Made by a program: the position numbers and the translations under genes. Below, piece by piece: positions 33,543 to 52,497 of a DNA stretch of 64,000 nt. The stretch comes from Lachnospiraceae bacterium (GTDB lineage Bacteria > Bacillota > Clostridia > Lachnospirales > Lachnospiraceae): assembly GCA_022793065.1 (NCBI GenBank), contig JAAWCE010000073.1, forward strand, positions 1 through 64,000. The letters are read 5' to 3'. The notes beneath the pieces are model-generated. The model had not been told where the DNA came from and ran no database searches. It saw only the letters and a program-made list of their open reading frames with translations. Each line of letters opens with the position of its first letter. Position 1 is the first letter of the stretch.

Positions 33543-33585
33543 AGTATGGCGCAGTATAAGCGTGAGAAAGTGAGGGAGAAGCAGA

Positions 33586-35097
33586 ATGATACAAAAGGAT
33601 ATTAGGGTGCTGGTGAATTATGGAATAAAGACAGGGCTTGTACCAAAAGAGGATGAGGTCTATACCGCCAACAGGCTGTTGGAGTTATTTGGGTTGGATG
33701 AATTAGAGGCAGCGGAAGAAACGGCTCAGGAACCGGAGGGAGAGAATTCGTTGGAAGAAGTGTTGGGCAGAATGTGTGATTATGCCTTTGAACGGGGAAT
33801 TCTTTCCGAGAACAGTGTGGTTTATCGGGATTTGTTTGATACTAAGATTATGGGATTGCTGATGCCCAGGCCCAGTGAAGTGATTGGACGTTTTCATGAA
33901 TTATATGAAACGGAATCTCCAGTGGCGGCCACGGAATATTATTATAAATTAAGTCAAGACTCCGATTATATCAGAAGATATCGTATCTGTAAGGACATGA
34001 AGTGGATTGCGCCCACAAAGTATGGGGATTTGGACATCACAGTTAATTTGTCCAAACCGGAGAAGGACCCCAAAGCCATTGCCGCCGCCAAAAACGCGAA
34101 ACAATCCGGATACCCCAAATGTCTGCTTTGCAGGGAGAATGAGGGATATGCCGGAAGGGTGAATCATCCCGCAAGACAGAATCACCGTATTATTCCGGTG
34201 ACCATTAACGGAAGCCAATGGGGATTTCAGTATTCTCCCTATGTCTATTATAATGAACATTGTATTGTATTCAACTTTCAGCATGTTCCTATGAAGATAG
34301 ACCGGGCGGCATTTTGTAAACTTTTTGATTTCGTAAAGCAGTTTCCGCATTATTTTGTAGGTTCCAATGCGGATTTGCCTATCGTGGGCGGATCTATTTT
34401 GAGCCACGACCATTTTCAGGGCGGACACTATGAGTTTGCTATGGCCAAAGCGCCGGTGGAAAGGCAGTTTACGGTGACAGGATATGAGGATGTGGCAGCG
34501 GGTGTGGTCAAATGGCCCATGTCGGTGATTCGTTTAAGCGGACCTGACACAGAACGCATGATTACTTTGGCAGATGTGATATTGAACAAGTGGCGCGGCT
34601 ATACGGATGAACAGGCATTTATTTATGCGGTTACGGATGGGGAGCCGCATAATACCATCACTCCCATTGCCAGAAAGCGGGGAGAGAACTATGAACTGGA
34701 TTTGGTTCTGCGCAATAATATTACGACAGAAGAACATCCCCTGGGCGTATATCATCCTCATGCAAAACTGCATCATATTAAGAAGGAAAATATTGGATTG
34801 ATAGAGGTTATGGGTTTGGCTGTGCTACCCGCACGTCTGAAGGACGAAATGGCAAAGTTAAAGGCGGCCATACTTTCGGGGGCAAATCTCCAGGAAGATG
34901 CTGAATTGGAAAAACATGCAGATTGGGTCAAAGAATTTATGCCCAAGTATGATAAAATAGACGAGAGTAATATTGACAGTATAATTGAAGCGGAAATCGG
35001 ACTGGTATTTATGGAAGTTTTGGAAGACGCCGGAGTGTATAAGAGGACGCCGGAAGGACAGGCGGCATTTGATAGGTTTATACATGAACTGGGGTGA
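33586..35097 (+). CDS. galT: UDP-glucose--hexose-1-phosphate uridylyltransferase
   Basis: 503 residues, the long Firmicute class of GalT, distinct from the roughly 350-residue E. coli type. Conserved regions include CLLCRENEGYAGR, VNHPARQNHRIIPV, the central SILSHDHFQGGHYEF with a His-rich motif, and TPIARKRGENYELDLVLRNN. It exchanges galactose-1-P for glucose-1-P on UDP. GGGAGAAGCAG precedes the ATG. It completes the galKT pair. The next gene follows after 60 bp and may be co-transcribed. Confidence 0.95.
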   Translation: MIQKDIRVLVNYGIKTGLVPKEDEVYTANRLLELFGLDELEAAEETAQEPEGENSLEEVLGRMCDYAFERGILSENSVVYRDLFDTKIMGLLMPRPSEVIGRFHELYETESPVAATEYYYKLSQDSDYIRRYRICKDMKWIAPTKYGDLDITVNLSKPEKDPKAIAAAKNAKQSGYPKCLLCRENEGYAGRVNHPARQNHRIIPVTINGSQWGFQYSPYVYYNEHCIVFNFQHVPMKIDRAAFCKLFDFVKQFPHYFVGSNADLPIVGGSILSHDHFQGGHYEFAMAKAPVERQFTVTGYEDVAAGVVKWPMSVIRLSGPDTERMITLADVILNKWRGYTDEQAFIYAVTDGEPHNTITPIARKRGENYELDLVLRNNITTEEHPLGVYHPHAKLHHIKKENIGLIEVMGLAVLPARLKDEMAKLKAAILSGANLQEDAELEKHADWVKEFMPKYDKIDESNIDSIIEAEIGLVFMEVLEDAGVYKRTPEGQAAFDRFIHELG

Positions 35098-36933: not shown

Positions 36934-37004
36934 GAATTGGCAGATTAGTATCCGGATCTGAAAGTTGTGGAAGGATTTGAGGTTACGGTTATTCATTTCG
37001 GGAG

Positions 37005-37358
37005 ATGTTTTCTGTCTATAATCCAAATTCGTTAATGAAGGCTATTTTCAATGATGATTTTGATTCTTATTGGACACAGACCTCTGCCGCAGAGAGTCTG
37101 TTGGGATACATTGGGCTTGATTTTGACGGGCTGGATAAGACGATTTCAGAGCTGCTCGGCGGTGTGGAGATAAAGGTGGACCTAAGAGGATTTGCAAATG
37201 ATATGGTGACTTTTCGAGATAAAGATGATGTGTTGACATTACTGATTCATTTGGGATATTTAACCTATAATGAAATTACGCAGAAAGTGCATATTCCCAA
37301 CGAAGAAATTCGATTAGAATTTGCCAGAACTGTCCGAAAAGTCAAAAAGAAAGCATAG
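37005..37358 (+). pseudogene. Fragment of an AAA-ATPase-like/PD-(D/E)XK protein
   Basis: 117 codons beginning MFSVYNPNSLMKAIFNDDF. This matches the middle of the large AAA-ATPase-like proteins that carry a C-terminal PD-(D/E)XK nuclease domain. The stretch DVLTLLIHLGYLTYNE and IPNEEIRLEF is characteristic of the junction between the two. Both the N-terminal ATPase (about 300 residues) and the nuclease domain are missing. No ribosome binding site is visible, and the sequence just upstream (36934-37004) is not in frame with known ATPase sequence. These genes are multicopy in gut Firmicutes, and this copy is a remnant. Confidence 0.75.
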
Positions 37359-37388
37359 GTGTAAGATAAAAATATGAATAAAACGTCC

Positions 37389-38045
37389 CTACTCCATGAA
37401 ATCTACATGAAGTAATGCCTGCGCAAGTGCAAAATCTTCGGAATTATTGATATCAATGGCTTCCTTGTATGTGACTGTTTTTATAAAGGGATGTTTTCCA
37501 ATGCGTCGATGATAAGTTTTGAAAACTTCTCTTGTAAAAACATATACCCCAGATGTTTCACGGTATATGGGAGCCAAATCCTGACTGCGGGGGATATTTT
37601 CCGCATCAAAATTAAGCGGTTCTCCATTTTGCCACAAGAAATCCTGAATTTTGACCGCACAAAAGGCGGAATCGTATTCGCCTGATAGAACTGCCTTCAT
37701 ACATTGTGTCATGGTATCTACGGAAATAAAAGGAGCGGTTGCATGGGCATAAACATAAATATCGGCGTCGTGCATAGGAAGAAATTCTTCAAATATCTGA
37801 GTAAAGTTAGAACTTGGCAAATCCAAATATTCGGGTCGCTTGGCAAATAAAATATCTTTGGGAAGGTAAGGGATGATATCTTCCTGGCTGCAAAATACAT
37901 AGATTTGTTCCGGTATCCCTGTTTCTTTCAAATTGTCAAGTTCATATTGCAGTAAGGGCTTTTCACCCAATAGTCGGGTATTCTTGCCGGGAAGGCGTTC
38001 ATTTTGCAGTTTAATTGGCATTATTGCTATTATTTTTTGATTCAT
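37389..38045 (-). CDS. Acylneuraminate cytidylyltransferase-like protein
   Basis: 218 residues, nucleotidyltransferase fold of the NeuA/KdsB group. IAIMPIKLQNERLPGKNTRLL is near the start (CTP-binding loop), followed by FAKRPEYLDLPSSNF and the metal-binding region IYVYAHATAPFISVDTM. It should activate a keto-acid sugar as its CMP form, or in some relatives a different sugar with CTP. It is the last gene of the surface-glycopolymer operon and overlaps the stop of the aldolase gene by four bases, so the two probably act in one pathway. No NeuB-like synthase is in the window. Confidence 0.85.
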   Translation of the reverse strand: MNQKIIAIMPIKLQNERLPGKNTRLLGEKPLLQYELDNLKETGIPEQIYVFCSQEDIIPYLPKDILFAKRPEYLDLPSSNFTQIFEEFLPMHDADIYVYAHATAPFISVDTMTQCMKAVLSGEYDSAFCAVKIQDFLWQNGEPLNFDAENIPRSQDLAPIYRETSGVYVFTREVFKTYHRRIGKHPFIKTVTYKEAIDINNSEDFALAQALLHVDFME

Positions 38046-39091
38046 GATGGCACCTTTCTGTCTGTTTTCTTTTCATAACTGGCATGTTCCTTCTTAAAGG
38101 ATTTCCACATTTGGAGGACGTAAGGTTTTCGGCAACGGGTTTTCATCTCATCCGGTATGGTAAGGATAAAAGCTTCAAAATCCGAAACAGATACATCATA
38201 CTCTTCCAGTAAATAACAAGCGTAATTTGGGTGGCAATGGTATAGTCCTGTAATAAACAGGTATGGGGAATATCCCCAGGATCTTTGCCGATAGATGGGC
38301 ATAATGTATTGACCGATGAGTTCCAAAATTAGTTGAATATTATACTTTTGGCCCATGGTCATATTGTAATAGTTGGTAATTAGTTCTGTGTTGAGGTTTC
38401 CGGCACCTCTGCCCATTCCGTACAGAGATGCGTCAAGAATTAATTTCCGGGTGGTTTCATATTCTAAAACATCCTGTGCGGTGATAAATGCCAGATTCAT
38501 ATTATTATGGGAGTGAAAGTCAATGAGGACATCGGGTTCCAGTAAGTTGTCTATGATCTTAAAGTACTTTCTGAAATCTTCTTTTATCATATATCCAAAA
38601 CTGTCCACAATGGAAACAGCATATGGTTCCAGGTGTGCAATCTGTCTCATTAAGCCGGCAAATTCATTCATGGTATAGTCAATCGTAACCATTGGCTGCA
38701 TAAATAGTTTGTAACCCTTTTGCCTCACCTCATGGGCAAGGGAGATTGCCTGATCAATCTGGTGTTTATAAAATACGACTCTGATACCGTCAATAGATGA
38801 GCCGGTGAATGTTGATAAATCATTTAAGGTAAATTGGTCTACATCTGCCATAGCCAGGAAGGTACAGTTTTTTCGGTCATCAGGAAGAAAAGAAATAATC
38901 TTTTCAATGGTATCAAACTGTGTGGTATGGCTGCAATGAACGGAATTGTTCAAATAACCTACTTCGATAAAGTCAATGGATGCAGTGGTTAAACCATGAA
39001 TCAATTGTCTTATTGTGTCATCCGAAAAGTTCCATTTGTTGATATAACCACCGTCTCGCAATGTGCAGTCCAGAATATTGAATTTGTCCAT
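38042..39091 (-). CDS. DRE-TIM (HMGL-like) aldolase-domain protein
   Basis: 349 residues from the ATG at 39091, which has AGGAG before it; the ORF track begins 73 residues earlier inside the membrane-protein gene. The start FNILDCTLRDGGYINKW carries the D-R-D/DGG motif of metal-dependent DRE-TIM aldolases, such as 4-hydroxy-2-oxovalerate aldolase and HMG-CoA lyase. DFHSHNNMNLAF holds the metal His pair and GMGRGAGNLNTE the conserved GxGRGxGN. Such enzymes make or break C-C bonds next to a keto acid. Paired with a NeuA-like enzyme in a glycan locus, it may make an unusual keto sugar or modify a side group. Confidence 0.85.
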   Translation of the reverse strand: MDKFNILDCTLRDGGYINKWNFSDDTIRQLIHGLTTASIDFIEVGYLNNSVHCSHTTQFDTIEKIISFLPDDRKNCTFLAMADVDQFTLNDLSTFTGSSIDGIRVVFYKHQIDQAISLAHEVRQKGYKLFMQPMVTIDYTMNEFAGLMRQIAHLEPYAVSIVDSFGYMIKEDFRKYFKIIDNLLEPDVLIDFHSHNNMNLAFITAQDVLEYETTRKLILDASLYGMGRGAGNLNTELITNYYNMTMGQKYNIQLILELIGQYIMPIYRQRSWGYSPYLFITGLYHCHPNYACYLLEEYDVSVSDFEAFILTIPDEMKTRCRKPYVLQMWKSFKKEHASYEKKTDRKVPS

Positions 39092-39102
39092 TTTGTTTGC
39101 TC

Positions 39103-40890
39103 CTATGAAGTTGTTTTCCTGCCAATGATGGGAATTATACTTATAAATATTGGAAGCATGTAGTAAATAACTAACATATATCGTGGCCAATAACTTGTTG
39201 GTGTGGCTATAAGTAATGTTATTAAAACTCCCAGACAAGGTACTATTGATAATATAAGTGATAGTTGTTTTTTTATTGAAGCATAAACCATTACCAAAAT
39301 CATAAACCACACAAGTATTCCAATTGCTATCATAGGAGTTGTCAGTGAAAAAATTTGTGTTGCATCAAACCATTTATTGCTTAATATATTATAATATTTT
39401 ACTTGTGCGTTTTTCCACCAGGGATTAGTTAGGGCACTGTTGAGATTACCGCTTGTAATATTTATTTTAAAATGGTTGTTTTCCCATACGTTGGGCGTCC
39501 AATATTGATAAGTCATTTCCAAGTATGCTTTTATATAAATGTCAGGGTTTTTTATTAATAGTTTAAACCATATTTTTATAAATTGAAGTTGATTTTGGGC
39601 TAAAAAATCTTTATTGAAATCTTTATCCCATTTAAGGGGATCAACTATTTGAGGGTGATATAATTCATTATATTTTTCTATAGGAAGTAGTTTATTAAGA
39701 AACTCCAATTCTTCTGTTCCTATATTACCTTCATCAGTGACAGTTCGAGCCATTTGTTGTAATAGTATTCCATATTTTTCAACTTCATCATCTTCTATAT
39801 TAAGAACTTTATATATGGGGCCTGTTATAATAAAAACCATAAATATAATTGTACATAAGGTCAAGATGTAGTGAATTTTTTCTTTGTAATTTTGTCTGTC
39901 AATAAAAGTATATATAAGCATAGATATGGTAATGACAGCGATAATATAAACACCATTATTTCTAAAAAAACAAATAATGAAAATACTTATTATATTTTGC
40001 AACAAAAAGCTTTTACTACGTAGGAGCTCACCTTTACTTAAGACCAGATCAAACAATAAAGTGCATAAATATAATAAGGAAACTGAAAAAATTCCATCTT
40101 TCCACATTGCAATTGCATGTTGCGGAAAACTTGGTTCAAATGCATAATATATGCAGGAAATAACTGAAAGAAAAATTATATTCTTATGTTTTAACCAACA
40201 AACTACATAGGAAAGAATACATGAAATAGCAATCATTTGTATGATAGTGTAGAAAGCATACCCTAAATTTATATTTCCCAACATAAGTCCGAATTTAATA
40301 CAAATTTTGATAAAGAATGTATATAATATTGGAAAGTGGTTATTCCAATTTTGAATTCCAAGTGCTTGATAGATAGAATTTAATGAATCTCCAAATATTA
40401 AACCAGGATAATATGTCAAAAAATATGGAAACCACATAGCAAAAATGAAGAAAGTGATAAGTATGAATTCACTTTTCTTTCCTATACCAGTTTTGGTTAG
40501 GTCTATAGAGCTTGTGTAGTTTCGGTAGGAAATTATTTCAAAAAGGTTGCAAAAAAAATTAAGTATCAGGTATGATGAAAACAGCAATAGTATTATGTCT
40601 AAAATGACAATTATAATATTAGCGTTGAAAGAAAATTCGTTTTTTATTAAATAAGCGACAAGGACTGATATATTTAAAAGTATTGCAGTTGATGAGAAAA
40701 CTAAGTTTTTTACATTATACAAATGGAGCAAAGAATATAAAAGGATACCTGCAATTATAAAATAGAGTATAGTTATATTAGGAATTAGCCAGTATTTAAG
40801 AAATACCTTTGTCACTAATAATATAAATAAGGTTTGGAAAAATAGTCGGATAATTGTTTTGTTATTTAAGGTTGAATTCTTTTCATTCAT
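39103..40890 (-). CDS. Polytopic membrane protein, DUF6020-like
   Basis: 595 residues with roughly twelve hydrophobic helices and one longer hydrophilic segment (about 370-480). An early loop reads YYPGLIFGDSLNSIYQALG followed by NHFPILYTFF, a pattern I associate with DUF6020 proteins, a GT-C-like group in which an acidic residue of the first external loop is thought to be catalytic. It could be a membrane glycosyltransferase using lipid-linked sugars. It is markedly AT-rich compared with the flanking housekeeping genes, like the rest of 39-46 kb, which suggests transfer of the locus. Confidence 0.72.
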   Translation of the reverse strand: MNEKNSTLNNKTIIRLFFQTLFILLVTKVFLKYWLIPNITILYFIIAGILLYSLLHLYNVKNLVFSSTAILLNISVLVAYLIKNEFSFNANIIIVILDIILLLFSSYLILNFFCNLFEIISYRNYTSSIDLTKTGIGKKSEFILITFFIFAMWFPYFLTYYPGLIFGDSLNSIYQALGIQNWNNHFPILYTFFIKICIKFGLMLGNINLGYAFYTIIQMIAISCILSYVVCWLKHKNIIFLSVISCIYYAFEPSFPQHAIAMWKDGIFSVSLLYLCTLLFDLVLSKGELLRSKSFLLQNIISIFIICFFRNNGVYIIAVITISMLIYTFIDRQNYKEKIHYILTLCTIIFMVFIITGPIYKVLNIEDDEVEKYGILLQQMARTVTDEGNIGTEELEFLNKLLPIEKYNELYHPQIVDPLKWDKDFNKDFLAQNQLQFIKIWFKLLIKNPDIYIKAYLEMTYQYWTPNVWENNHFKINITSGNLNSALTNPWWKNAQVKYYNILSNKWFDATQIFSLTTPMIAIGILVWFMILVMVYASIKKQLSLILSIVPCLGVLITLLIATPTSYWPRYMLVIYYMLPIFISIIPIIGRKTTS

Positions 40891-40920
40891 GGGTTTTTCT
40901 TCTTAATTTAGTCTATCAAG

Positions 40921-42774
40921 CTAATTTATGTTGTCATACATAGCAAATGGAGAATAAACATCAAATAGTACCTGATTACGATTTGGACTTAAATTATTAT
41001 ATTCCAGATAGAAGTAGTTCTCTATTTTTTCAGTAAGTTCAGTATGAGTTTTGTAATCAGTGATGTTACCGTCAGAATCCATGTACATATTAAATGAAGA
41101 TAAAACAGGAACATCCTTTTGCAGGTCAAGCATATATTGATAATATGGGGAGCGCTGTAAATCTGCCACTTCTAAAACCATAGGCATAATATAATTTAAA
41201 CTTACATAACCAACATCTTTGCTTTCCATATCACGATTACTCCAAATGATAAAAGGAGTACTGCGTAATCGCAGATCTTTTTCATAACCAGTATATTTTT
41301 CACTTACAATATCATCTGCAAAATAAGGAGAATGATCTCCTACCATACAGATAATTACAGGTTTGGATACATTTAAAAAGTAGTCAGTTAAATCTTTAAA
41401 TGCAGTATCAGATAATTTCATACATGAAAGAAACTCATTGATACGAGACGTATATTCGCCATAATCGCCTAAAATGTGTATAGAATCTACCTCAGGAGGA
41501 TTCATTTCATAATCGGCATGATTTTGTATGGTTAGAAGATATATAAACAGAGGATTGTCTTCCGAATTGTTCTCATACCATGTGATTAAATTCTGATACA
41601 AGCTGTCATCTGTTTCAAACCATCTATCTGAGTAAAATTCCCGATTAATAAAATCTTCCTCAAAATAGATTTTTTGAAATCCCATTGCTGGATACGCTCT
41701 ACCTCTTGAATAGTTCTCTCCCGTTCTGGGATGAGCGCCAATACTATTGTATCCTAACTGATTCATCAGGCTGACAATACTGTTTGCGTTTGTCATATCC
41801 AGTACATTAAAAGGAGTAATTCCCTGCATTATTTGAAGGGAGTTACTGGTTAGCAGTTCATATTCAGATGCATTGGTCATTCTTACAGGAACCACAGAAT
41901 ATCCTCTAATGGAGTTTTCTAAACTGTAAAAATTGTCAAAATATGGTACATCAGTTTTGATATCTATAATCTGATTGAGATCATAAAAAGTTTCATTCAA
42001 TATCAATATAATGTCCGGTCGTTCGCTGAAAGTTTCAGGTACTTCAATTTCAATATTTTGTACTGCAGCTTCAGAATAATTTTCAGGCATTTGTATAATG
42101 TGGAAGCTGGATTGTATCATTTCAATAGAGCATGCAACATAGCCATATGTCTGATAAGATTCTTGCCACGACCAACCAATTGTCTGATGCGGCTTAATTG
42201 AATACTCTGACAAATAACCGATATATAATAATGCTGAACAATATATAAGCGTTAAAGCGTTAAAAATGATATTTTGCTTTAATGTATAGTTCTTTTGAAC
42301 AAACTTAGGAATAAACGCCAAAATAATAGATGGTATTTCTAGCGCAATGAGTAAAAGTACAGTATTGTCGATTTTAATATTATACCCATTTATGACATCT
42401 AAAGCTGTTTTGAAATTTTTTAGTTCAAAAATAGTCAGAGGTAAACTGTGTAATTTTATCATATAGTAATTAACAATACCAACTAAAAAAAACGAAATAG
42501 AAAAACAAATTTGACTAATCCAGAGTTTTCTTAAAATTATGGTAAATAAGCCTAAAACTGCAATGAGAGTCATATAATTTAATATAATATATTTCCATTC
42601 CATTTTAAGATATTGCTCACTATAGTTACAGCTTATCTCTAACTGTATTTGTGTCAATAATATAATTATAATAGAAGATATTGCATTTGCTGAGTATATA
42701 ATTTTATGAGATATTGGACGAAAATTCAATATGGTATCCTGCTTTCTAATAATAGTTATGAATGATATTATCAA
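40921..42774 (-). CDS. LTA-synthase-like sulfatase-domain membrane protein
   Basis: 617 residues in the ORF track. Five membrane helices occupy about 1-215, followed by an extracellular alkaline-phosphatase/sulfatase domain. RPDIILILNETFYDL supplies the metal-binding Glu, RMTNASEYELLTSNSL a Thr that aligns with the catalytic Thr of LtaS, and CMVGDHSPYF a metal-binding Asp-His. LtaS-type enzymes transfer glycerol-phosphate from phosphatidylglycerol to a polymer or glycan. The TTG start at 42774 has no good ribosome binding site, so the true start is uncertain. In this locus it may decorate the exported polysaccharide with phosphoglycerol. Confidence 0.83.
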   Translation of the reverse strand: MIISFITIIRKQDTILNFRPISHKIIYSANAISSIIIILLTQIQLEISCNYSEQYLKMEWKYIILNYMTLIAVLGLFTIILRKLWISQICFSISFFLVGIVNYYMIKLHSLPLTIFELKNFKTALDVINGYNIKIDNTVLLLIALEIPSIILAFIPKFVQKNYTLKQNIIFNALTLIYCSALLYIGYLSEYSIKPHQTIGWSWQESYQTYGYVACSIEMIQSSFHIIQMPENYSEAAVQNIEIEVPETFSERPDIILILNETFYDLNQIIDIKTDVPYFDNFYSLENSIRGYSVVPVRMTNASEYELLTSNSLQIMQGITPFNVLDMTNANSIVSLMNQLGYNSIGAHPRTGENYSRGRAYPAMGFQKIYFEEDFINREFYSDRWFETDDSLYQNLITWYENNSEDNPLFIYLLTIQNHADYEMNPPEVDSIHILGDYGEYTSRINEFLSCMKLSDTAFKDLTDYFLNVSKPVIICMVGDHSPYFADDIVSEKYTGYEKDLRLRSTPFIIWSNRDMESKDVGYVSLNYIMPMVLEVADLQRSPYYQYMLDLQKDVPVLSSFNMYMDSDGNITDYKTHTELTEKIENYFYLEYNNLSPNRNQVLFDVYSPFAMYDNIN

Positions 42775-42896
42775 ACTTTTATAAGGTTCTAACAGTTACA
42801 CTAAGTTTCTCTGTATAAAAAAGAATATATAGGCTGTCAGCATCACCATGTCATGCACAGCATATTTTGGGGGATTAATGTGGGTAGTTATGATGT

Positions 42897-43991
42897 TCAA
42901 CGAATCACCTCGTCAAAGTTAATTCGGGGAAAGACTTCCAGTGCGCTTTTCCGACTGGCATTGTAAATTTGTACGCCTAATTGTTTCTCACAATGATACT
43001 TTATATCTGCGTAAGCCTGTGTGGTATATTGGAAGGATTTTTCTGCATCGATAACATTTTTGTATACTTGTGAACGCTCTTGTTCATTGGAAAAATATTT
43101 ATTGTTAAAATGGCTGTTTACACTTGTGTCAACCACCTTTTTTCCATTTTCATCTATCTTCATGGGGAGCGTATGGTCACACCCTAATAAATATATTTCT
43201 GTAAATCCCATATAAACCGCAATGTTAATTAATTTGCCGGTAATGGTTCCATAGAAGTGTATTCCCCTGGTAATGTCTTTATTGAAGAAACAAGGTTGTC
43301 TCTCTGCCTGGATAAAGGGGTAATATATCGCATCTTTAATTTCAATATTGTGTCTTAGAATCGCTTGTGCACAGACAAATTTGGGAAAGCCGGATAATTT
43401 ATTTATATCTTTTTCTTTCAATTTAATATAATCCAAGTCGGACACGCCCCAAATGTCTGGTCGCCATGGGGTATCATCAAATATGTTATAAATTCCTTTT
43501 GATGCCAGGCAAAAAATGTGATTATCTTTTAAAGTAGTAAGATCCTCTGCATTTAAAGAGGGGCCATTACCAATAACAAAACATTTTTCTCCAACGTGGG
43601 AATTTTGGAATGACTCAATTTTGCTGCGATTTCCGGGAAAACGTTGTTCGATTTCGTATAACTGCAATTGGGAAAGCATATTATCAAAGCCAAAGGTAAG
43701 CATCCAATCTTCGGCTTTTTTAAAATTTTTGTATTCTTCCAGGCGTCGGTCTCTTTCCTCCAACTTACGGTTAATATAATTATACAATTCATCGCTTAAC
43801 ATCTTGTGACTTTGAGATATTCTGGTTTCTGTGTATTCTATTGCATTTTCGGGAGTGTTGCCATTATGATTATTCTCCAACTGTTTTCGCAAATCTTCAT
43901 TTTCTTCTTTCAAAGAATTTAACAGTTCGCTTAATTTAGAAATTCTAAAACTGTTCTCACGGATTTTTTGTTCTAATTCGGCTGATCTCAT
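42897..43991 (-). CDS. DUF115-type protein with N-terminal coiled coil
   Basis: 364 residues. Residues 1-100 form a charged coiled coil (LSELLNSLKEENEDLRKQLE). The rest has the DUF115/MptE-like fold, with KCFVIGNGPSLNAEDL at the start and GFTEIYLLGCDHTLP in the second half. DUF115 proteins relate to 6-hydroxymethylpterin pyrophosphokinase and to Maf-type proteins, and in Firmicute glycan loci they commonly stand beside glycosyltransferases, where a role in sugar transfer is suspected. It starts 11 bp after the GT2 gene stop, so it belongs to the operon. Confidence 0.8.
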   Translation of the reverse strand: MRSAELEQKIRENSFRISKLSELLNSLKEENEDLRKQLENNHNGNTPENAIEYTETRISQSHKMLSDELYNYINRKLEERDRRLEEYKNFKKAEDWMLTFGFDNMLSQLQLYEIEQRFPGNRSKIESFQNSHVGEKCFVIGNGPSLNAEDLTTLKDNHIFCLASKGIYNIFDDTPWRPDIWGVSDLDYIKLKEKDINKLSGFPKFVCAQAILRHNIEIKDAIYYPFIQAERQPCFFNKDITRGIHFYGTITGKLINIAVYMGFTEIYLLGCDHTLPMKIDENGKKVVDTSVNSHFNNKYFSNEQERSQVYKNVIDAEKSFQYTTQAYADIKYHCEKQLGVQIYNASRKSALEVFPRINFDEVIR

Positions 43992-44002
43992 TTTTTCCTT
44001 CC

Positions 44003-45292
44003 TTATACATTCTTATTTTTGTTAAAAAAATTACGCAATTTAAATTTAAAACTGAATATAATAGATGCAAAAGTAGTTTTTAGTCCTTTATTTTCTACAC
44101 TTTCAGTCAGTTTCTCTATTTTTTTGCTCTTAAGTAATAGATTACTCTTTTTTAGAAAACCATCTATACACTTGTTGAACTTTCCTGGATAATATCTTAT
44201 ATTGTTTTGCTGGGCAGTACTATTTTGCTTTTGGATATCCTGTTGGTGGATTTCTAAAAGTTTGTCATAAGCATATCCTACATCATTATGCTTTACACAG
44301 TGCTTAATCCATTCAAAATTTTCTGGAATCCAACCAGCTTTTCCAATCCATCTTTTGGCATCCTTGGTGTTAAGAATTCTAAAGATTTCTGATTTTATTC
44401 CTTGTTCTTCGGATAAATGTATGGATTTGCTTAGGGAATGTATACATTTTGATATAATTCCGGCAGCATATTGATAAAAATAATTTATATTATTTCCTGA
44501 CCAGATTTTTTCATCTATCAGAAAACTTTTAAATTCTCTTAACATAGCAATCTGATTATCAAACAAATTTTTGTGATAGCGCTCTGTTAAGGATTCCTGA
44601 CTTCTATGAAAATAGAAATATAAGATATCAGAAATAAAAGCAATGCTATTCAATAGCTTAAAATAGGAAAGGTTTAATATAAAATCTTCTCCTAAGTTTT
44701 TATCTTCAGGAAAAATAATATTATTTTCTGTCAAAAATTTTTTTTTATATAATTTATTGCAAGGACCTTCCAAGAGAACAGTATATAAAAGGATTGCAGA
44801 AAAGTCTTCTTCAAATTCTGTTTTGGACAAAATACATTCCTTCCCCAAATATGACGGTGTCCAGTCTTCGTGCTTTTCTACTTTTCCATCTGCCAAGTGC
44901 ACACTTCGCATGCCGCAAATGACCATATCCGTATCATAAGAAATCAGAGTATCCACCAATCGTTCTGTCATGTGAGTGGAAATGGTATCATCTGAATCCA
45001 CAAATTGAATGTAATCGCCAGTTGCCTCTTGAATTCCTTTGTTTCTGGCATGACTGACTCCATGGTTATCAATATTGATAATACGGATTCTTTGGTCCAG
45101 TTGTTCGTAATTTCGGCAGATGCGTAATGAGCCGTCTGTGGAGCCATCGTTTATGAGTAGTATTTCAATATTGTGGTAAGTTTGTCTTATAACCGAAGAT
45201 AAAGTTTGGCCTAAATATTGTTCCGCATTGTATATCGGAATAATAATACTGACTTTCCCTTTTTTTTCTTCGGCTATTTCCTTTTGATACAT
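44003..45292 (-). CDS. GT2-family glycosyltransferase
   Basis: 429 residues. A GT-A domain occupies about 1-220: VSIIIPIYNAEQYLGQTLSS, EILLINDGSTDGS and the metal/nucleotide-sugar DxD region IQFVDSDDTIS. The C-terminal 200 residues are helical and basic, without membrane spans. It resembles WcaA/EpsJ-type enzymes that add a sugar to a lipid-linked glycan at the inner face of the membrane. Its start overlaps the end of the upstream GT2 gene by 19 bp. The donor sugar cannot be predicted. Confidence 0.9.
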   Translation of the reverse strand: MYQKEIAEEKKGKVSIIIPIYNAEQYLGQTLSSVIRQTYHNIEILLINDGSTDGSLRICRNYEQLDQRIRIINIDNHGVSHARNKGIQEATGDYIQFVDSDDTISTHMTERLVDTLISYDTDMVICGMRSVHLADGKVEKHEDWTPSYLGKECILSKTEFEEDFSAILLYTVLLEGPCNKLYKKKFLTENNIIFPEDKNLGEDFILNLSYFKLLNSIAFISDILYFYFHRSQESLTERYHKNLFDNQIAMLREFKSFLIDEKIWSGNNINYFYQYAAGIISKCIHSLSKSIHLSEEQGIKSEIFRILNTKDAKRWIGKAGWIPENFEWIKHCVKHNDVGYAYDKLLEIHQQDIQKQNSTAQQNNIRYYPGKFNKCIDGFLKKSNLLLKSKKIEKLTESVENKGLKTTFASIIFSFKFKLRNFFNKNKNV

Positions 45293-46272
45293 CGCTCCAA
45301 TGATACCTTTCCTTCCCTTGCATTTCTTTCAACCCCATATTTGATAATTCCTTTGGATAAGAGTTTAAATTCATCCAAATACCAGGGATCTACTTTGTGC
45401 TTTTCCAAATAGGCCACATCTCGTTGCACCTGCTTTATCAATTCGTTAACTTTATTGCCGCCGATATTGTATTGGTAGCATTTATAAGCACTCTCCAGCA
45501 CTTGCCAACAATAGATATCGTTCATTTTCTTTTCCAGACGTTTAATGCCGTTGGCTTCAAAAAAATCTATCCGCTCCCTGAATGCTTGGCAAGCGTCTAA
45601 ATTAGCCGCGCTGAATTTTTCACCCGTTATACTATCAGTGCGTCTGCGGTCATAATTATAAAAAGAAAAATCTATATAAACCAGTTTTTTTGCCTGATAA
45701 AATATCTTGTAAGTAGTAAATTCATCTTCGTGAATTTTACCTTTGGGATATCGGATATTGCCTATGACCTTCTTTTTGTATAGTTTATTCCACGCATTGG
45801 GTTTGAAATAATGCCAATCCAGCATTGCTTCCAAAGCAAAAATATTGTCCCCAACCGTTACGTCGCCCGTACAGGGGGATTCCTCTAAAGTGATATCGGA
45901 ATATAAATTGCGATAGCTACATTCCGCAATATCTGCCCCATGTTCAAGCAGGGTAGTGTGCAGGATTTCCAACATTTGCGGGTCAATCCAGTCATCGCTG
46001 TCAATGAAAGCCAGATATGCGCCTGTGGCCAATTCCATGCCGGCATTTCTGGCATCGGAAAGTCCTCCGTTTTCTTTGTGAAGTACACGGATTCGCTGAT
46101 CCGTTTGGGCATATTTATCACAAATATCTCCGCAGGAGTCAGGAGAACCATCGTCTATGAGCAAAACTTCCAGGTTTTGGTAGGTCTGATTCAGGATGGA
46201 ATTCACACAACGGTTTAAATATTGTTCCACGTTATAGATGGGGACAATGACACTTATTTTTTCATTTTCCAT
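45274..46272 (-). CDS. GT2-family glycosyltransferase
   Basis: 332 residues from the ATG at 46272 (ISVIVPIYNVEQYLNRCVNS, EVLLIDDGSPDSCGDICDKY, LAFIDSDDWIDP). It is closely similar in the first 110 residues to its neighbour, suggesting an old duplication, but has a shorter C-terminus. The ORF-track start at 46284 adds four residues. The 130-bp gap to the upstream ATPase gene is AT-rich with no clear terminator. It belongs to the surface-glycopolymer operon. Confidence 0.9.
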   Translation of the reverse strand: MENEKISVIVPIYNVEQYLNRCVNSILNQTYQNLEVLLIDDGSPDSCGDICDKYAQTDQRIRVLHKENGGLSDARNAGMELATGAYLAFIDSDDWIDPQMLEILHTTLLEHGADIAECSYRNLYSDITLEESPCTGDVTVGDNIFALEAMLDWHYFKPNAWNKLYKKKVIGNIRYPKGKIHEDEFTTYKIFYQAKKLVYIDFSFYNYDRRRTDSITGEKFSAANLDACQAFRERIDFFEANGIKRLEKKMNDIYCWQVLESAYKCYQYNIGGNKVNELIKQVQRDVAYLEKHKVDPWYLDEFKLLSKGIIKYGVERNAREGKVSLERCIKRK

Positions 46273-46401
46273 AACTATCCTCAATTAGTTTTCTTAGACG
46301 GCAATTTATCTGTGATGTCCGAAAATCTGCCAATACGCCGAACCAAATAAAAGTAATTGCGAAAAATAGCAATAATGTTGTAAAAAACGTATATTTTTAG
46401 A

Positions 46402-47139
46402 TTATTGGCTCATATATGCGTCGCAGACTTTCTCGGCATCACCCTTCATCATAACATGACCTTTTTCCAGCCAAAGCACATGACTGCACAGGGTTCTGAC
46501 GGATTTGATCGTATGTGAAACATAGAGTAAGGTAGTTCCGGAATCCAACATATGTTTCATGCGAGTTTCGCATTTCTCCTGAAATTTATAGTCGCCCACG
46601 GATAATACCTCGTCACAGATGAGGATATCGGGCTGTACCATGGTTGCGACGGCAAAACCCAACCGTGCTGCCATACCGGAAGAGTAATTTTTCAAAGGCA
46701 TATCAAGAAAGTCCCATAATTCTGCAAATTCAATAATTTCTTCAAAATTATTCCGCATAAATTCTTCCGAGTATCCCATCAATGTACCATTGAGCAGAAC
46801 ATTTTCCCTCGCCGTAAGTTCTCCGTCAAAGCCGGCGCCCAATTCGATTAATGGCGCGATACTGCCGGAAACGGAAACGCTCCCCTTATATGGTCTCAGA
46901 ATACCGCAAATGAGTTTCAATAAGGTGGATTTGCCGGAACCGTTAGTGCCCACAATGCCCCAGGATTCTCCGGCCTTTACCTGGAAGTTTACGTCCTGAA
47001 GAGCCAGAAATTCCTGAAACATGAGTTCTTTTCTTGCCAATTTAATGATATATTCTTTTAAATTGTTGATTTTTTGCGATGCCATATTGAAGCGCACAGT
47101 GGCATCCTTCACATCAATGACAATATTATTTTCGTTCAT
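46402..47139 (-). CDS. Polysaccharide ABC exporter ATPase (Wzt/TagH-like)
   Basis: 245 residues. Walker A is GIVGTNGSGKSTLLKLI, followed by APLIELGAGFDGELTARENV (the E-L-G-x-G-F motif typical of polysaccharide exporters), signature LKNYSSGMAARLGFAVAT and Walker B ILICDEVLSVGD. It lacks the C-terminal carbohydrate-binding domain of some Wzt proteins, so chain length is probably not sensed by it. It energises the export of a completed lipid-linked polymer through the permease encoded nine bases upstream. Confidence 0.93.
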   Translation of the reverse strand: MNENNIVIDVKDATVRFNMASQKINNLKEYIIKLARKELMFQEFLALQDVNFQVKAGESWGIVGTNGSGKSTLLKLICGILRPYKGSVSVSGSIAPLIELGAGFDGELTARENVLLNGTLMGYSEEFMRNNFEEIIEFAELWDFLDMPLKNYSSGMAARLGFAVATMVQPDILICDEVLSVGDYKFQEKCETRMKHMLDSGTTLLYVSHTIKSVRTLCSHVLWLEKGHVMMKGDAEKVCDAYMSQ

Positions 47140-47148
47140 GCCGCACTC

Positions 47149-47937
47149 CTAAATGTACAGGATAAATTTATCCTGATTCTTTAAAAAGGAACAAGTGCCC
47201 AGTAATAAGAAAACGAAAGCCAGCACAAAACCATATACAAGGGTGCCGATATCAGGAATGGACTGTTCCAACACAAGGGTTCTGAACTGTGTAACATAGT
47301 GGTACATGGGATTAAACGTCATAATTGCCTGCTGCATAGCCTCAGGAAGCTGCTCCATAGGATAGAAGAGTGGGGTCAGATACATCCAGGCAGTTGTTAA
47401 GACACTGTATATATATTGAATGTCTCTGAAGAATACTGTAATCTGTGCCAGGAACAACCCCAGGCCGAGGCAGAAAATGTATACTTCAACCAATACCACA
47501 GGCACTAAAAGCATGTAAAAAGAAAACTGTACTTTGGATATAATAAATACAATGACCATTGCACCCAGGGAAAATAACAGGTTTACAAGGGAACTTGTCA
47601 CTTTGGACAGGGTAAAAATATATTTTGGCACATAGACTTTTTTCAGCAATGGACCGTTTCCGGTAATTGAAAAGAGCGCCTGGTTTGTGGCTTCTGTCAT
47701 AAAAGTGAAAAGCGTCTGACCAATAATCAAATAGGCAGGGTAATTTTGCACCTCAAAACGAAACATGTGTGAAAACACCAGATACATTACTACCATTACC
47801 ATCAGTGGGTTTAAAACGCTCCAAACATATCCGAGGAAACTTCTTCTGTATTTCAATTTGATATCTTTTAATACAAGCTGTTTTACCAATGCTCTATATT
47901 TATACAGCCCTTGTAATCGGGCGCTCATTTTATTCAT
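47149..47937 (-). CDS. Polysaccharide ABC exporter permease (Wzm/TagG-like)
   Basis: 262 residues with six membrane helices. The N-terminal amphipathic RALVKQLVLKDIKLKYRRS and GYVWSVLNPLMVMVVMYLVF are hallmark features of ABC-2 polysaccharide exporters. The start at 47937 follows AAAGGAACC. It partners with the following ATPase. Together they define ABC-dependent, not Wzx/Wzy-dependent, export, so the polymer is probably finished in the cytoplasm. Confidence 0.92.
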   Translation of the reverse strand: MNKMSARLQGLYKYRALVKQLVLKDIKLKYRRSFLGYVWSVLNPLMVMVVMYLVFSHMFRFEVQNYPAYLIIGQTLFTFMTEATNQALFSITGNGPLLKKVYVPKYIFTLSKVTSSLVNLLFSLGAMVIVFIISKVQFSFYMLLVPVVLVEVYIFCLGLGLFLAQITVFFRDIQYIYSVLTTAWMYLTPLFYPMEQLPEAMQQAIMTFNPMYHYVTQFRTLVLEQSIPDIGTLVYGFVLAFVFLLLGTCSFLKNQDKFILYI

Positions 47938-47981
47938 AATTTGTGGTTCCTTTCCCGGCAATTCTTTTACTGCAAATCAAA

Positions 47982-49445
47982 TTATTTTCTACGATATATT
48001 TTGTGTAAGCATGCTCTCACAAAGCAACGAAACATAATTGCCGGACTGCTTAGTTCTTCCATGCTGACGATAGGCCGTTCCGGAACTTTACCAGAATTGT
48101 CAGGGGAAGATTCAATATTTATGGGTATTGCTGTAATATTTGACATGGCAGCCAATAACATATCATAGTCCGCAACATGTGAAGCAGGAGATGCATAAAA
48201 CAAAACTTTTATCTCTTTTTCCTTCAGCATGTTGTAAAATATCTTTGCCCGTTGTTCGTATAAATCCCAACTTGCATTAATGGAATCTGGTAAATATACG
48301 ACTTCTTTCAGGAATGTTTCCGAGGTATCCAATATATCTTTTTGATTTTCATCCGTGTATATTGTGACGGCGCTGCCTTGAGATTTTAAAAGGGCAATTA
48401 TTTGCGGTAATATGTGATTCAAGTCTTGATTGCCCAAATATCGGCAGTAAATTGCCGTATTACTTCCTACTTCAATTCCTGTTCTTTTTACAATGGTTTT
48501 GACTTGTTCAAAGTGAAGCCTTGCAAGGGCACCCACAATAGCGTCCGGTGAAAAGTATTTACTCAGAATTTGAAAACCTTTGACAGAATCGGATTTTGTC
48601 AATTTATGAAACCAACAATCTGCACAATCCCACAAAATTTGATTGGCAAACTGTGTGGCAATGGCCTCATATTGTTCCGCTGCATGTTCACTTTCTAAAA
48701 AATCTGCCACCAACGCAGAAGCAGAAGCACCGGAACACCGTTTCTCAAATTGTTCAACCGTTAAGAGATCTCCGCCGGTTACACCAATGCCAAGGTTGTA
48801 ATGATAAAATTTGTCTGTAATGCCCCTATAGCTTTTGGCATAATAAGCCATTAGGAAGAATAAATATCTATCTTCTGATGCTACAAGTCTTTGAGGTTGC
48901 ACTTTGGAAAAGGCGGCGGAGCATATTTCCCGTTTCCATATTTTATTTGTTATATTAAAATCAAATTTTTCCTGTAGAAAGCAAAAATTTAATAGATTAT
49001 CTCCCTCTAATTTTCCACTGTAAGGGGTCAGAAAGTGTGTAACCCATTTTATCATTTCGGCGGACACATTTGATCCGGAATGAAGTGCCGTGCCGAAATG
49101 GATGACATCGGTCTGTTCCTTTTCCATAAGAAGATACAGTCGTTCACAAGCCTGACAATCCAGAAAATCATCACTGTCCACAAACATCAGATATTGACCG
49201 TTTGCTTCCGCCACACCCTGAGTACGGGCGCATAACGTCCCTTTGTTTTCCGGAAAGGTAATTGTAATAATCCGGTCGTCTTCTTTTGCATATTTTTGTA
49301 TAATTTCGTGACATTTGTCCTGTGACCCATCGTTAATACATATGATTTCAATCTCTTTTAGCGATTGTCTGATCAGACTGTCCAGACAACCGCAAATATA
49401 GTTTTCTACATTATAAACAGGTACGATAATTGAAATTTTTACCAT
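47982..49445 (-). CDS. Two-domain GT2-family glycosyltransferase
   Basis: 487 residues. The first 230 form a GT2 domain (ISIIVPVYNVENYICGCLDS, EIICINDGSQDKCHEI, LMFVDSDDFLDC). Residues 330-480 look like a Rossmann-type domain (TAIYCRYLGNQDLNHILPQI, then SHVADYDMLLAAMSNITAIP), perhaps a GT-B-like half or glycerol-phosphotransferase-like region that I cannot assign. It is the first gene of the minus-strand operon behind the inverted-copy promoter near 50 kb. Confidence 0.85.
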   Translation of the reverse strand: MVKISIIVPVYNVENYICGCLDSLIRQSLKEIEIICINDGSQDKCHEIIQKYAKEDDRIITITFPENKGTLCARTQGVAEANGQYLMFVDSDDFLDCQACERLYLLMEKEQTDVIHFGTALHSGSNVSAEMIKWVTHFLTPYSGKLEGDNLLNFCFLQEKFDFNITNKIWKREICSAAFSKVQPQRLVASEDRYLFFLMAYYAKSYRGITDKFYHYNLGIGVTGGDLLTVEQFEKRCSGASASALVADFLESEHAAEQYEAIATQFANQILWDCADCWFHKLTKSDSVKGFQILSKYFSPDAIVGALARLHFEQVKTIVKRTGIEVGSNTAIYCRYLGNQDLNHILPQIIALLKSQGSAVTIYTDENQKDILDTSETFLKEVVYLPDSINASWDLYEQRAKIFYNMLKEKEIKVLFYASPASHVADYDMLLAAMSNITAIPINIESSPDNSGKVPERPIVSMEELSSPAIMFRCFVRACLHKIYRRK

Positions 49446-49467
49446 GAGTTACCTCTATGATGGCTGT

Positions 49468-49665
49468 TTAACTATCCAAATGGCCAATGAGCTTTAGATA
49501 GACTTTGACAGCCCATTTTCGCGCTTTACTTTCTTTGGGGTGGTCTTTAAAAATATCCAGTATGAGAAAACGATAAATTGTTTCCGTCGTAATGGGTTCT
49601 TTTGCCAGAAGAATATGCCCGGCAACTTTCTTTCGGACATTTACAAAGGAAATCCAAACATTATC
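49468..49665 (-). pseudogene. Decayed GT8/DUF4422 glycosyltransferase gene
   Basis: Read on the minus strand the frame gives DNVWISFVNVRKKVAGHIL, then ITTETIYRFLILDIFKDHPK, and jumps directly to ESKARKWAVKVYLKL before the TAA at 49468-49470. The intact gene at 50378-52276 has GDNVDLSFVNVGKRV, ITTETYYRFLILDILKCYPK and, some 230 residues later, GSKARQWAIQVYFKL. The fragment is therefore a paralogue of that gene with a large in-frame internal deletion and no proper start. Confidence 0.85.
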
Positions 49666-49953
49666 CTTGCATAATTGAGTCTATTGGCTGGAAGTATTTT
49701 GTTGTCACCCATTGTCAATCGCCGCGAAACATTGTGATAAATTTCCCGATTGAATTCATGCGCTGTTTTACCGGTCCATGAAAGCCATTACTTCTATTGC
49801 ATAAGCTTTTGGGATGGGCGTTTTCGGTTTTGCAGCCGATATATAAAAATGCGCTATAACAATTACAAAAGCGCAACAATAAAAAGCATATATTTTATGT
49901 TTTACCCCACGTAAGCCCAAAGACATTAAGCCGGCCCATAGGGGGATGTCAAT

Positions 49954-50031
49954 ATTTATAACAAATAAGGACTTTTTTAATATAACAGTATTAGCCGGTA
50001 ATGTCAATACTTTAAAATCGCCTATTTCTGC
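49954..50031 (-). promoter_or_regulatory. Promoter of the surface-glycopolymer operon (left arm of inverted repeat)
   Basis: On the minus strand TTGACA (50007-50002), a 17-bp spacer and TATATT (49984-49979). The whole 78-bp segment is an inverted copy, 72/78 identical, of 50264-50341. It points toward the ten-gene minus-strand operon that begins at 49445. Confidence 0.75.
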
Positions 50032-50263
50032 TTTTATAAGGTATAATAACAGTTCCTGAATAGTGGTACGCCCTAAGTAAAATAGCCGCACTAAATTTCA
50101 GGAAACTCTTTGCATTCTGAAAGGGTTTGGGAAACTATGCACAAAATACAATTAATACCACTTTAAATATGTATGTTTATCTGCAGCTTGAAGAAAATGT
50201 GTAGAATTGGTAGAGTGGAAGTAATATCAATTGGGTATCCTAATTCTTAATTTTTGATAAGAT

Positions 50264-50341
50264 GCAGAAATAGGCGATTTTAAAGTATTGACATTATCGG
50301 TTGGTGCTGTTACATTAAAAAAGTCCTTATTTGTTATAAAT
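50264..50341 (+). promoter_or_regulatory. Promoter of the DUF4422-GT8 gene (right arm of inverted repeat)
   Basis: TTGACA (50288-50293), a 17-bp spacer and TACATT (50311-50316). The segment matches the left arm in inverse orientation with six substitutions, all within the spacer and -10 area. The flanks of the -35 box and the transcribed start are identical. Confidence 0.75.
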
Positions 50342-50377
50342 ACAGCAATCCGGACAGGAGGATACGGAGAAACGACA

Positions 50378-52276
50378 ATGAACGATATTAAAGTATATGT
50401 AACCCATAGTCCAAACGGCAATGCAATGAGAATAGAAAATTCTCTTTTCTGCCATGTCATAGCGGGAAGCGATTTTCTGAAACAGCCTGTACCACAGGGA
50501 TATTTGCCGGATAATCAGGGGGAAAATATTTCCTCAAAGAATAAATCTTATTGTGAGCTTACCACCCAATATTGGGCATGGAAAAACCAGCAGGCCGACT
50601 ATTATGGCTTTTGTCATTACAGAAGGTATTTTAGTTTTAACAGGGGAACTTTGCCGGAAACCAAATGGGGAACCATTGAGTATGATTATTTGGATGAACA
50701 GGTTGCCGCCGAACTTCATTTAAATGAAAAGGACATGAAGAAATATATTGAAGAATATGATTTCCTCATAGCCAAAGGCGTCAACGCGGATTGTATGGAC
50801 TCCAAGACGATTTACGACCAATATAATGAGGCTTCCGATCTTCATATTGAAGATGTGGATTTGCTGTTGAAGATTATAGACGAGAGACATCCATATTTAA
50901 GCAGCGTTGCCAGGCGCTTTTTTCATGGGAAGACTTTTTACCCATGCAATATGTTTATTATGAAGAAGGAGTTATTTCATACTTATAGCAAACTCCTTTT
51001 TGATGTGTTGGGAGAGTTTGAGCGCTGTGCGAATTTAAGCGATTATTCAAGAGAAGGCTATCGAACCATTGGACATTTGGGGGAACGTATGGCCGGAATT
51101 TATTATCTGTATCTGAAGGAGAAACAGCAATTTCGACTGGGAGAAATTCAGATTGCATTGGTTCATCATGCAGATAAAGAAGATGAATGTTCTGCAGAAC
51201 TTGCAGACGGAGTGATGGGAGAGGATGAATCTGCCGTGGGTCAGGTAGTGCCTGTGGTGTTGGCGGCCAACCAAAAATATGTCCCCATTTTGTATATATG
51301 TATACAATCCATTGTGGAACATCTTAGCAGGGAATATCAATATCATATATATGTTTTCCATACAGATATCACCAAAGAGAGCCAGGACAAGTTTCGACAA
51401 CATTTTGTCGGCGACAATGTGGATCTTTCCTTTGTCAATGTGGGAAAAAGGGTGTGGAGACATGTTTTGCAGGCCAAGGAACACATTACAACGGAGACAT
51501 ATTATCGTTTTTTGATACTTGATATTTTGAAATGTTATCCAAAGGTAGTATATCTGGATTGTGACACCATTGTATGCCGGGATGTGGCGGAGCTGTATCA
51601 TACCGAGCTTAAGGATAATTTGATTGCAGCGGTTGTAGACGCTGACTTTGCAGGGCAGTGTAACAGGAAGAATTCGGAAATGAGGCAGTATTGTCTGGAT
51701 GTGTTGAAGATGGACAATCCTTTTCTCTATTTTCAGGCGGGCGTATTGGTGATGAATGTCCGTGAACTGCGCAAACAGATATCGGTTGAACAACTGTTTG
51801 ATATGTCCGACACGGGCATCTATAGGTTTTCCGACCAGGATATTCTCAATATTGTCTGTAAGGGACGTGTGACCTATCTGGATATGGCCTGGAATGTTTT
51901 GTCGGATTGTAATAATTTTCGTGTGAATGAGGTCATTCGTCATGCACCTTACTATATTTTAGACGCTTATGAGGAAGCGCGAAAAGAACCTTATATCATA
52001 CATTATGCAGGTTTTATGAAGCCGTGGATGAATCCCAAAGAAGATTACGCCCAGGTATTCTGGCAGGCTGCAAGGCGGACGGAATATTATGAAGCTTTGC
52101 TATGGGATATGATGGAAGGAATGTGTCCGTCGGGTGGACAGGAAAGAAAAGAAGAACCGGAAGACGGTTTGTTCTTAGGTACAATGAGAAAAATTATGCG
52201 GCATGTTTTTCCTAAAGGGAGTAAGGCAAGGCAATGGGCCATTCAGGTATATTTTAAACTGAAGAAACAGTATTGA
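50378..52276 (+). CDS. DUF4422-GT8 two-domain glycosyltransferase
   Basis: 632 residues from the ATG at 50378, placed by the GGAG segments upstream; the ORF-track start at 50288 lies in the promoter. Residues 1-260 are a DUF4422 domain (YCELTTQYWAWKNQQADYYG and FCHYRRYF), found in glycosyltransferase-like proteins. Residues 295-560 are a GT8/LgtC-like domain (IPVVLAANQKY-type start, here VVPVVLAANQKYVPILY, DxD in VVYLDCDTIVCRD, and IIHYAGFMKPWMN). Two glycosyltransferase domains in one chain may add two sugars in turn. Divergent from the operon that it probably serves. A terminator follows. Confidence 0.88.
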   Translation: MNDIKVYVTHSPNGNAMRIENSLFCHVIAGSDFLKQPVPQGYLPDNQGENISSKNKSYCELTTQYWAWKNQQADYYGFCHYRRYFSFNRGTLPETKWGTIEYDYLDEQVAAELHLNEKDMKKYIEEYDFLIAKGVNADCMDSKTIYDQYNEASDLHIEDVDLLLKIIDERHPYLSSVARRFFHGKTFYPCNMFIMKKELFHTYSKLLFDVLGEFERCANLSDYSREGYRTIGHLGERMAGIYYLYLKEKQQFRLGEIQIALVHHADKEDECSAELADGVMGEDESAVGQVVPVVLAANQKYVPILYICIQSIVEHLSREYQYHIYVFHTDITKESQDKFRQHFVGDNVDLSFVNVGKRVWRHVLQAKEHITTETYYRFLILDILKCYPKVVYLDCDTIVCRDVAELYHTELKDNLIAAVVDADFAGQCNRKNSEMRQYCLDVLKMDNPFLYFQAGVLVMNVRELRKQISVEQLFDMSDTGIYRFSDQDILNIVCKGRVTYLDMAWNVLSDCNNFRVNEVIRHAPYYILDAYEEARKEPYIIHYAGFMKPWMNPKEDYAQVFWQAARRTEYYEALLWDMMEGMCPSGGQERKEEPEDGLFLGTMRKIMRHVFPKGSKARQWAIQVYFKLKKQY

Positions 52277-52312
52277 TTTCTGGCTGCCGGAGTGCAGTTA
52301 TTTTACAGAACA

Positions 52313-52329
52313 TCCCTGTGTAACAGGGA
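52313..52329 (+). terminator. Small hairpin after the GT8 gene
   Basis: TCCCTGT-GTA-ACAGGGA, a 7-bp perfect stem with a 3-base loop, not followed by a T run. It probably stabilises the 3' end, with the better terminator downstream. Confidence 0.4.
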
Positions 52330-52421
52330 CAATAATTATGGTAATTGCGGCAAGTGAAATCGGTGTCAATGGAAATCTTACTATACTGTTCTCATAAAAA
52401 GGGAATTCATACTGTGTTATG

Positions 52422-52457
52422 TAAAATACAGTTTACTTATAGGGTAAGCTGTATTTT
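52422..52457. terminator. Bidirectional terminator between convergent genes
   Basis: AAAATACAG-T-TTAC pairs with GTAA-G-CTGTATTTT, followed by T residues, and A-rich sequence precedes it, so it works on both strands. It separates the GT8 gene from the convergent gene ending at 52498. Confidence 0.8.
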
Positions 52458-52497
52458 TAGCGTTTTTCTGTACAAGTTTCTTCAAAGAATATACATA

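Follow-up and report, generated by a model that had tools for sequence, protein, structure and literature searches.

Two near-identical, outward-facing promoter-like sequences lie between a ten-gene polysaccharide operon and a divergent glycosyltransferase gene in the genome of a gut-type Lachnospiraceae bacterium, and beside the left one stands a fragment of a related glycosyltransferase gene. How did both units come to have the same promoter, and why are the promoters so much more alike than the genes? A preliminary description of the window, i.e., the whole stretch of 64,000 nucleotides analysed here, had proposed an inverted duplication of promoter plus gene followed by decay of the left gene, whose surviving promoter was left to drive the operon. 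The features discussed below are collected in Table 1.

Table 1. Features of the operon, the inverted repeat and the divergent gene, in window coordinates
Feature	Position	Strand	Detail or basis
Island	36934..52495	.	Absent between the radical-SAM gene and orf208 in 12 congeners
Remaining operon genes: GT2, GT2, MptE-like, sulfatase-family, DUF6020, HMGL-like, cytidylyltransferase	37389..46284	-	Domain search
ABC exporter ATPase, Wzt-like	46402..47139	-	Pfam (PF00005)
ABC-2 exporter membrane subunit, Wzm-like	47149..47961	-	Pfam (PF01061)
GT2 glycosyltransferase, first intact operon gene	47982..49445	-	Pfam
GT8 pseudogene piece 2 (intact-gene residues 612-628)	49486..49536	-	Joined in frame to piece 1
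GT8 pseudogene piece 1 (intact-gene residues 346-389)	49534..49665	-	31/44 aa, 92/132 nt
DNA separating the left arm from the GT8 pseudogene	49666..49943	-	278 nt; 52-codon ORF with one apparent membrane span
Left arm, candidate operon-facing promoter	49944..50031	-	TTGACA 50007-50002, TATATT 49984-49979, TGn-extended
Spacer between arms, mostly debris	50032..50263	.	Sequence comparison
Remnant, 3' end of IS1182-like transposase gene	50075..50152	+	Nucleotide matches
Right arm, candidate promoter facing the intact DUF4422-GT8 gene	50264..50351	+	TTGACA 50288-50293, TACATT 50311-50316
Intact DUF4422(GT111)-GT8 gene, WbbM-like bifunctional glycosyltransferase	50378..52276	+	632 aa, Pfam

The 78-bp divergent repeat of the preliminary description was confirmed (72/78 identical, gap-free and with no indel) and forms the inner part of two 88-nt arms that are 89% identical and 232 nt apart. 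A search against the organism's own genome gave this inner match an E-value of 2.4e-26 and found no copies besides these two. An assembly chimera behind the repeat is unlikely, because both the arms and the genes have diverged. Both arms carry the sigma-70-like pattern TTGACA-N17-TAYATT with a TGn before the -10 hexamer (extended -10), and both point outward; compared with the consensus, the hexamers score 11/12 in the left arm and 10/12 in the right, with a -35/-10 spacing of 17 bp. Looser promoter-like sites in the region are about as many as in shuffled sequence, i.e., at chance level, and the evidence for a promoter pair is therefore the repeat rather than the consensus. The left arm is the sole sigma-70-like candidate on the minus strand between 49446 and 50391, making it the best candidate for the operon promoter, as had been suggested. 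Judged from sequence, both arms are most likely active as promoters, and it is plausible that through them the exporter operon would be expressed in the same pattern as the divergent synthase. No common promoter was found upstream of homologous GT8 genes elsewhere, a plasmid search gave no match, and no Rfam RNA or riboswitch in the region scored near the gathering threshold. A viral contig sharing 19 exact promoter letters was judged a chance match.

The right arm faces a gene whose product contains an N-terminal DUF4422 domain (PF14393, 1.3e-58) and a C-terminal Glyco_transf_8 domain (PF01501, 4.9e-43), and a phmmer comparison with WbbM (PDB 6u4b) gave E = 1.1e-82 over residues 41-568. The N-terminal domain of WbbM is the founding GT111, a UDP-Galf transferase, and its C-terminal domain is a GT8 UDP-Galp transferase (PMC12269835). 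The present gene shares with WbbM, the bifunctional GT111-GT8 D-galactan I synthase of Klebsiella pneumoniae O2a, both the domain order and the linkage to a Wzm/Wzt-type ABC exporter (PF01061, PF00005). However, in contrast to the WbbM locus, the host is of Lachnospiraceae type, judged by its nearest homologues, the companion genes are others and the synthase gene is divergent from the operon; its activity, including the synthesis of a Galp/Galf polymer, is a prediction. A second DUF4422-GT8 homologue, 39% identical, occurs elsewhere in the same genome.

On the other side of the repeat, the proposed relationship of the left GT8 pseudogene to this intact gene was borne out. Of the 60 residues that can be compared, 41 are identical between the remnant and the intact gene, no other homologue shares more than 35 with the remnant, and quick trees pair remnant and intact gene with a support of 0.83-0.88. 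Its extent has to be qualified, since it spans only about 61 of the 632 residues of the gene before ending in a stop codon at 49470-49468. The catalytic core (residues 390-611, including the DCD motif) is deleted, and the junction is a short motif, CCNAAAG, which is found at both corresponding sites of the intact gene, suggesting that a slippage deletion removed the core. In addition, the left arm is 278 nt away from the remnant, compared with about 1,035 nt expected from the gene, and no relation of this stretch to the gene was detectable: a search with the DUF4422 family HMM at maximum sensitivity showed no homology, there was no Pfam match, and a family-wide DNA search gave nothing beyond 24-35-nt matches.

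The spacer between the arms holds a scrap of a transposase gene, called IS1182-like on an NCBIfam match below the cut-off. Its nucleotide identity is 82-84% to the copies of two other genera of the family and 75% to those of a further two. The presence of this scrap indicates that the interval was rearranged. Spacer matches to ispH (27 bp), to a Flp-pilin-like gene (43 bp) and to polA/coaE were judged to be chance. An inverted repeat that encloses transposase debris might be read as the termini of a MITE or IS with outward promoters. However, the full IS copy (at locus L138) ends in different terminal repeats, TTTTGACCCCAGCATCAT, which are absent at this locus, showing that the arms are not the ends of this IS, and no further copy of the arm or its promoter was found in the same genome or, as an exact pattern, in 138 genomes of the genus. 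With a single genomic locus and differing IS ends, this very improbable reading was rejected. The 232-bp segment flanked by inverted repeats at a polysaccharide locus also resembles the invertible capsule promoters of Bacteroides. In such a switch the promoter lies between the inverted repeats, whereas here both promoters sit within the arms and point outward in either orientation, so that inverting 50032-50263 would have no regulatory effect. As no recombinase was recognised in the island either, a promoter switch is hardly credible.

The relative ages of the genes and the promoters were compared. The remnant is identical to the intact gene at 124 of 183 sites (68%), and the 59 differences (32%) consist of 29 transitions and 30 transversions. 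Counted over both pieces of the remnant, with the junction codon counted twice, the differences are distributed 16/9/35 over the three codon positions, a third-position excess (chi-square p = 1e-4) which indicates that most of them arose under protein-level selection on both copies. The left copy would thus have been a working paralogue for a long time before its decay, and the two are probably in-lineage paralogues that are nearly as distant as genes of different species. The mirror-image homology of promoters and genes, on which the preliminary history was built, stands, but copies that diverged so far under such selection are at odds with one recent duplication and subsequent decay.

The promoter arms, in contrast, differ by only about 8% (92% identical). 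Arm positions 1-33 and 51-79 are identical. All six differences lie within positions 34-50: the -10 hexamer has one, and the other five are in the sequence separating the hexamers. Such clustering within 17 bp of 78 has p = 0.0013, and the local divergence of 6/17 (35%) is close to the 32% of the genes, which favours a promoter pair as old as the genes with constrained flanks. However, all six changes are transitions, compared with the even mixture in the gene pair (p = 0.014), and neither flanking block recurs in the same genome at up to 3 mismatches, both of which favour later copying or homogenisation. From this one genome, the promoters may have been kept alike by selection or by homogenisation of the arms, or may have been copied later.

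For the last of these, the GT8 genes would already have been old paralogues, or separately acquired alleles, when an inverted copy of the promoter alone (about 88 bp) was placed in front of the right gene, e.g., by template switching. The gap between 92% identity in the arms and 68% in the genes, the abrupt loss of similarity beyond either end of the arms, the all-transition spectrum and the rearranged interval marked by the IS scrap agree with such an event. However, it requires the divergent placement of a paralogue plus a separate copying step, and the clustering would not be expected if a recent copy had drifted uniformly; we consider it rather unlikely. Alternatively, after an old inverted duplication, gene conversion or template switching could have kept the inverted arms alike, as homogenisation between inverted-repeat arms is described for yeast (PMC8604942). 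The arms are close enough, at 232 bp apart, and their identity is much above that of the linked genes, but the mid-arm position of the six differences would need at least two tracts; we regard this explanation as quite improbable. As for selection, the two 25-33-nt blocks beside the core promoter might be a dedicated, highly specific operator pair that couples synthase and exporter expression and was kept while the genes diverged by a third, a proposal that we put forward tentatively and regard as doubtful.

The gene arrangement in relatives bears on which site is the original one. At nine loci of other genomes, the homologous gene is co-oriented with homologues of both ABC genes, directly preceding them in two and directly following them in three. 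Since relatives keep the gene co-oriented in an ABC-exporter operon, the left, co-oriented site is probably native and the right, divergent gene is the derived arrangement. The left promoter has thus probably always served the operon, rather than being a survivor recruited by it as originally supposed.

The ten-gene operon is an ABC-transporter-dependent polysaccharide set, and the structure of its product is a prediction. In 12 congeners, the radical-SAM gene (35158) is found close to the orf208-VanW genes (52498, 53344), with no operon genes between them, and DNA homology to the nearest relative restarts at 52496; a single island is therefore the best reading for the operon together with both promoters. 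The radical-SAM/orf208 junction is an integration hotspot, and in the nearest relative genes for a type I restriction subunit R, GmrSD and a helicase lie beside orf208 instead. Inside the operon, the G+C content drops to 27-35% at 39001-45000, whereas most of the sequence around it has about 41-49%, which suggests mixed origins of the operon cassette. A 117-aa ORF without a Pfam family at the left island edge (37005-37358) could be the tail of a gene that was lost. The genes galK and galT (32379-35097) immediately precede the radical-SAM gene, not far from what is probably a galactose-polymer locus; the galT-radical-SAM linkage predates the island, because it is present in congeners too.

The history that we favour, with some confidence but no more, is an old inverted duplication of promoter and gene, a long paralogue phase and then decay of the operon copy, with the arms kept alike by constraint and/or homogenisation. 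The left promoter would once have driven an ABC-exporter operon, part of a horizontally patchy polysaccharide island, that began with a WbbM-type DUF4422-GT8 synthase gene, and the duplication would have created a divergent second copy of promoter and gene. Both copies would have remained functional while diverging, until deletions removed the catalytic core and most of the 5' portion of the operon copy, so that the divergent right copy would now provide the enzyme. The left promoter would begin the operon transcript with a leader of roughly 525 nt holding the dead GT8 fragment, and the arms would have stayed near-identical through constrained flanks (shared regulation of enzyme and exporter), mutual homogenisation, or both.

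This history is supported by the mirror-image homology, by the sister relationship of remnant and intact gene, by the third-position excess, by the co-oriented gene in relatives and by the left arm being the sole operon-facing candidate, and it fits the clustered differences, since drifting spacer DNA between held flanks predicts such clustering. Counting against it are the 33 + 29 invariant flanking nucleotides, as a core promoter needs fewer, the all-transition changes, which hint at a later origin for the promoter pair than for the genes, the shortness of the remnant, and the fact that the flanks have no copy elsewhere in the genome at up to 3 mismatches and that none of the island genes was recognised as a regulator. 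Divergent duplicated promoters arising from tandem or inverted gene duplication are a known counterpart, likewise with two homologous promoters and one decayed paralogue; unlike the usual case, the promoters here are far more alike than the genes, and one of them would serve a ten-gene operon.

As a relic of an old gene duplication the locus is unusually clear, though of an ordinary kind, and it would be a compact fossil of a polysaccharide synthase leaving its operon for a divergent unit while the operon's promoter was retained. The mismatch between promoter and gene divergence makes it a testable bacterial case of promoter constraint versus inverted-repeat homogenisation.
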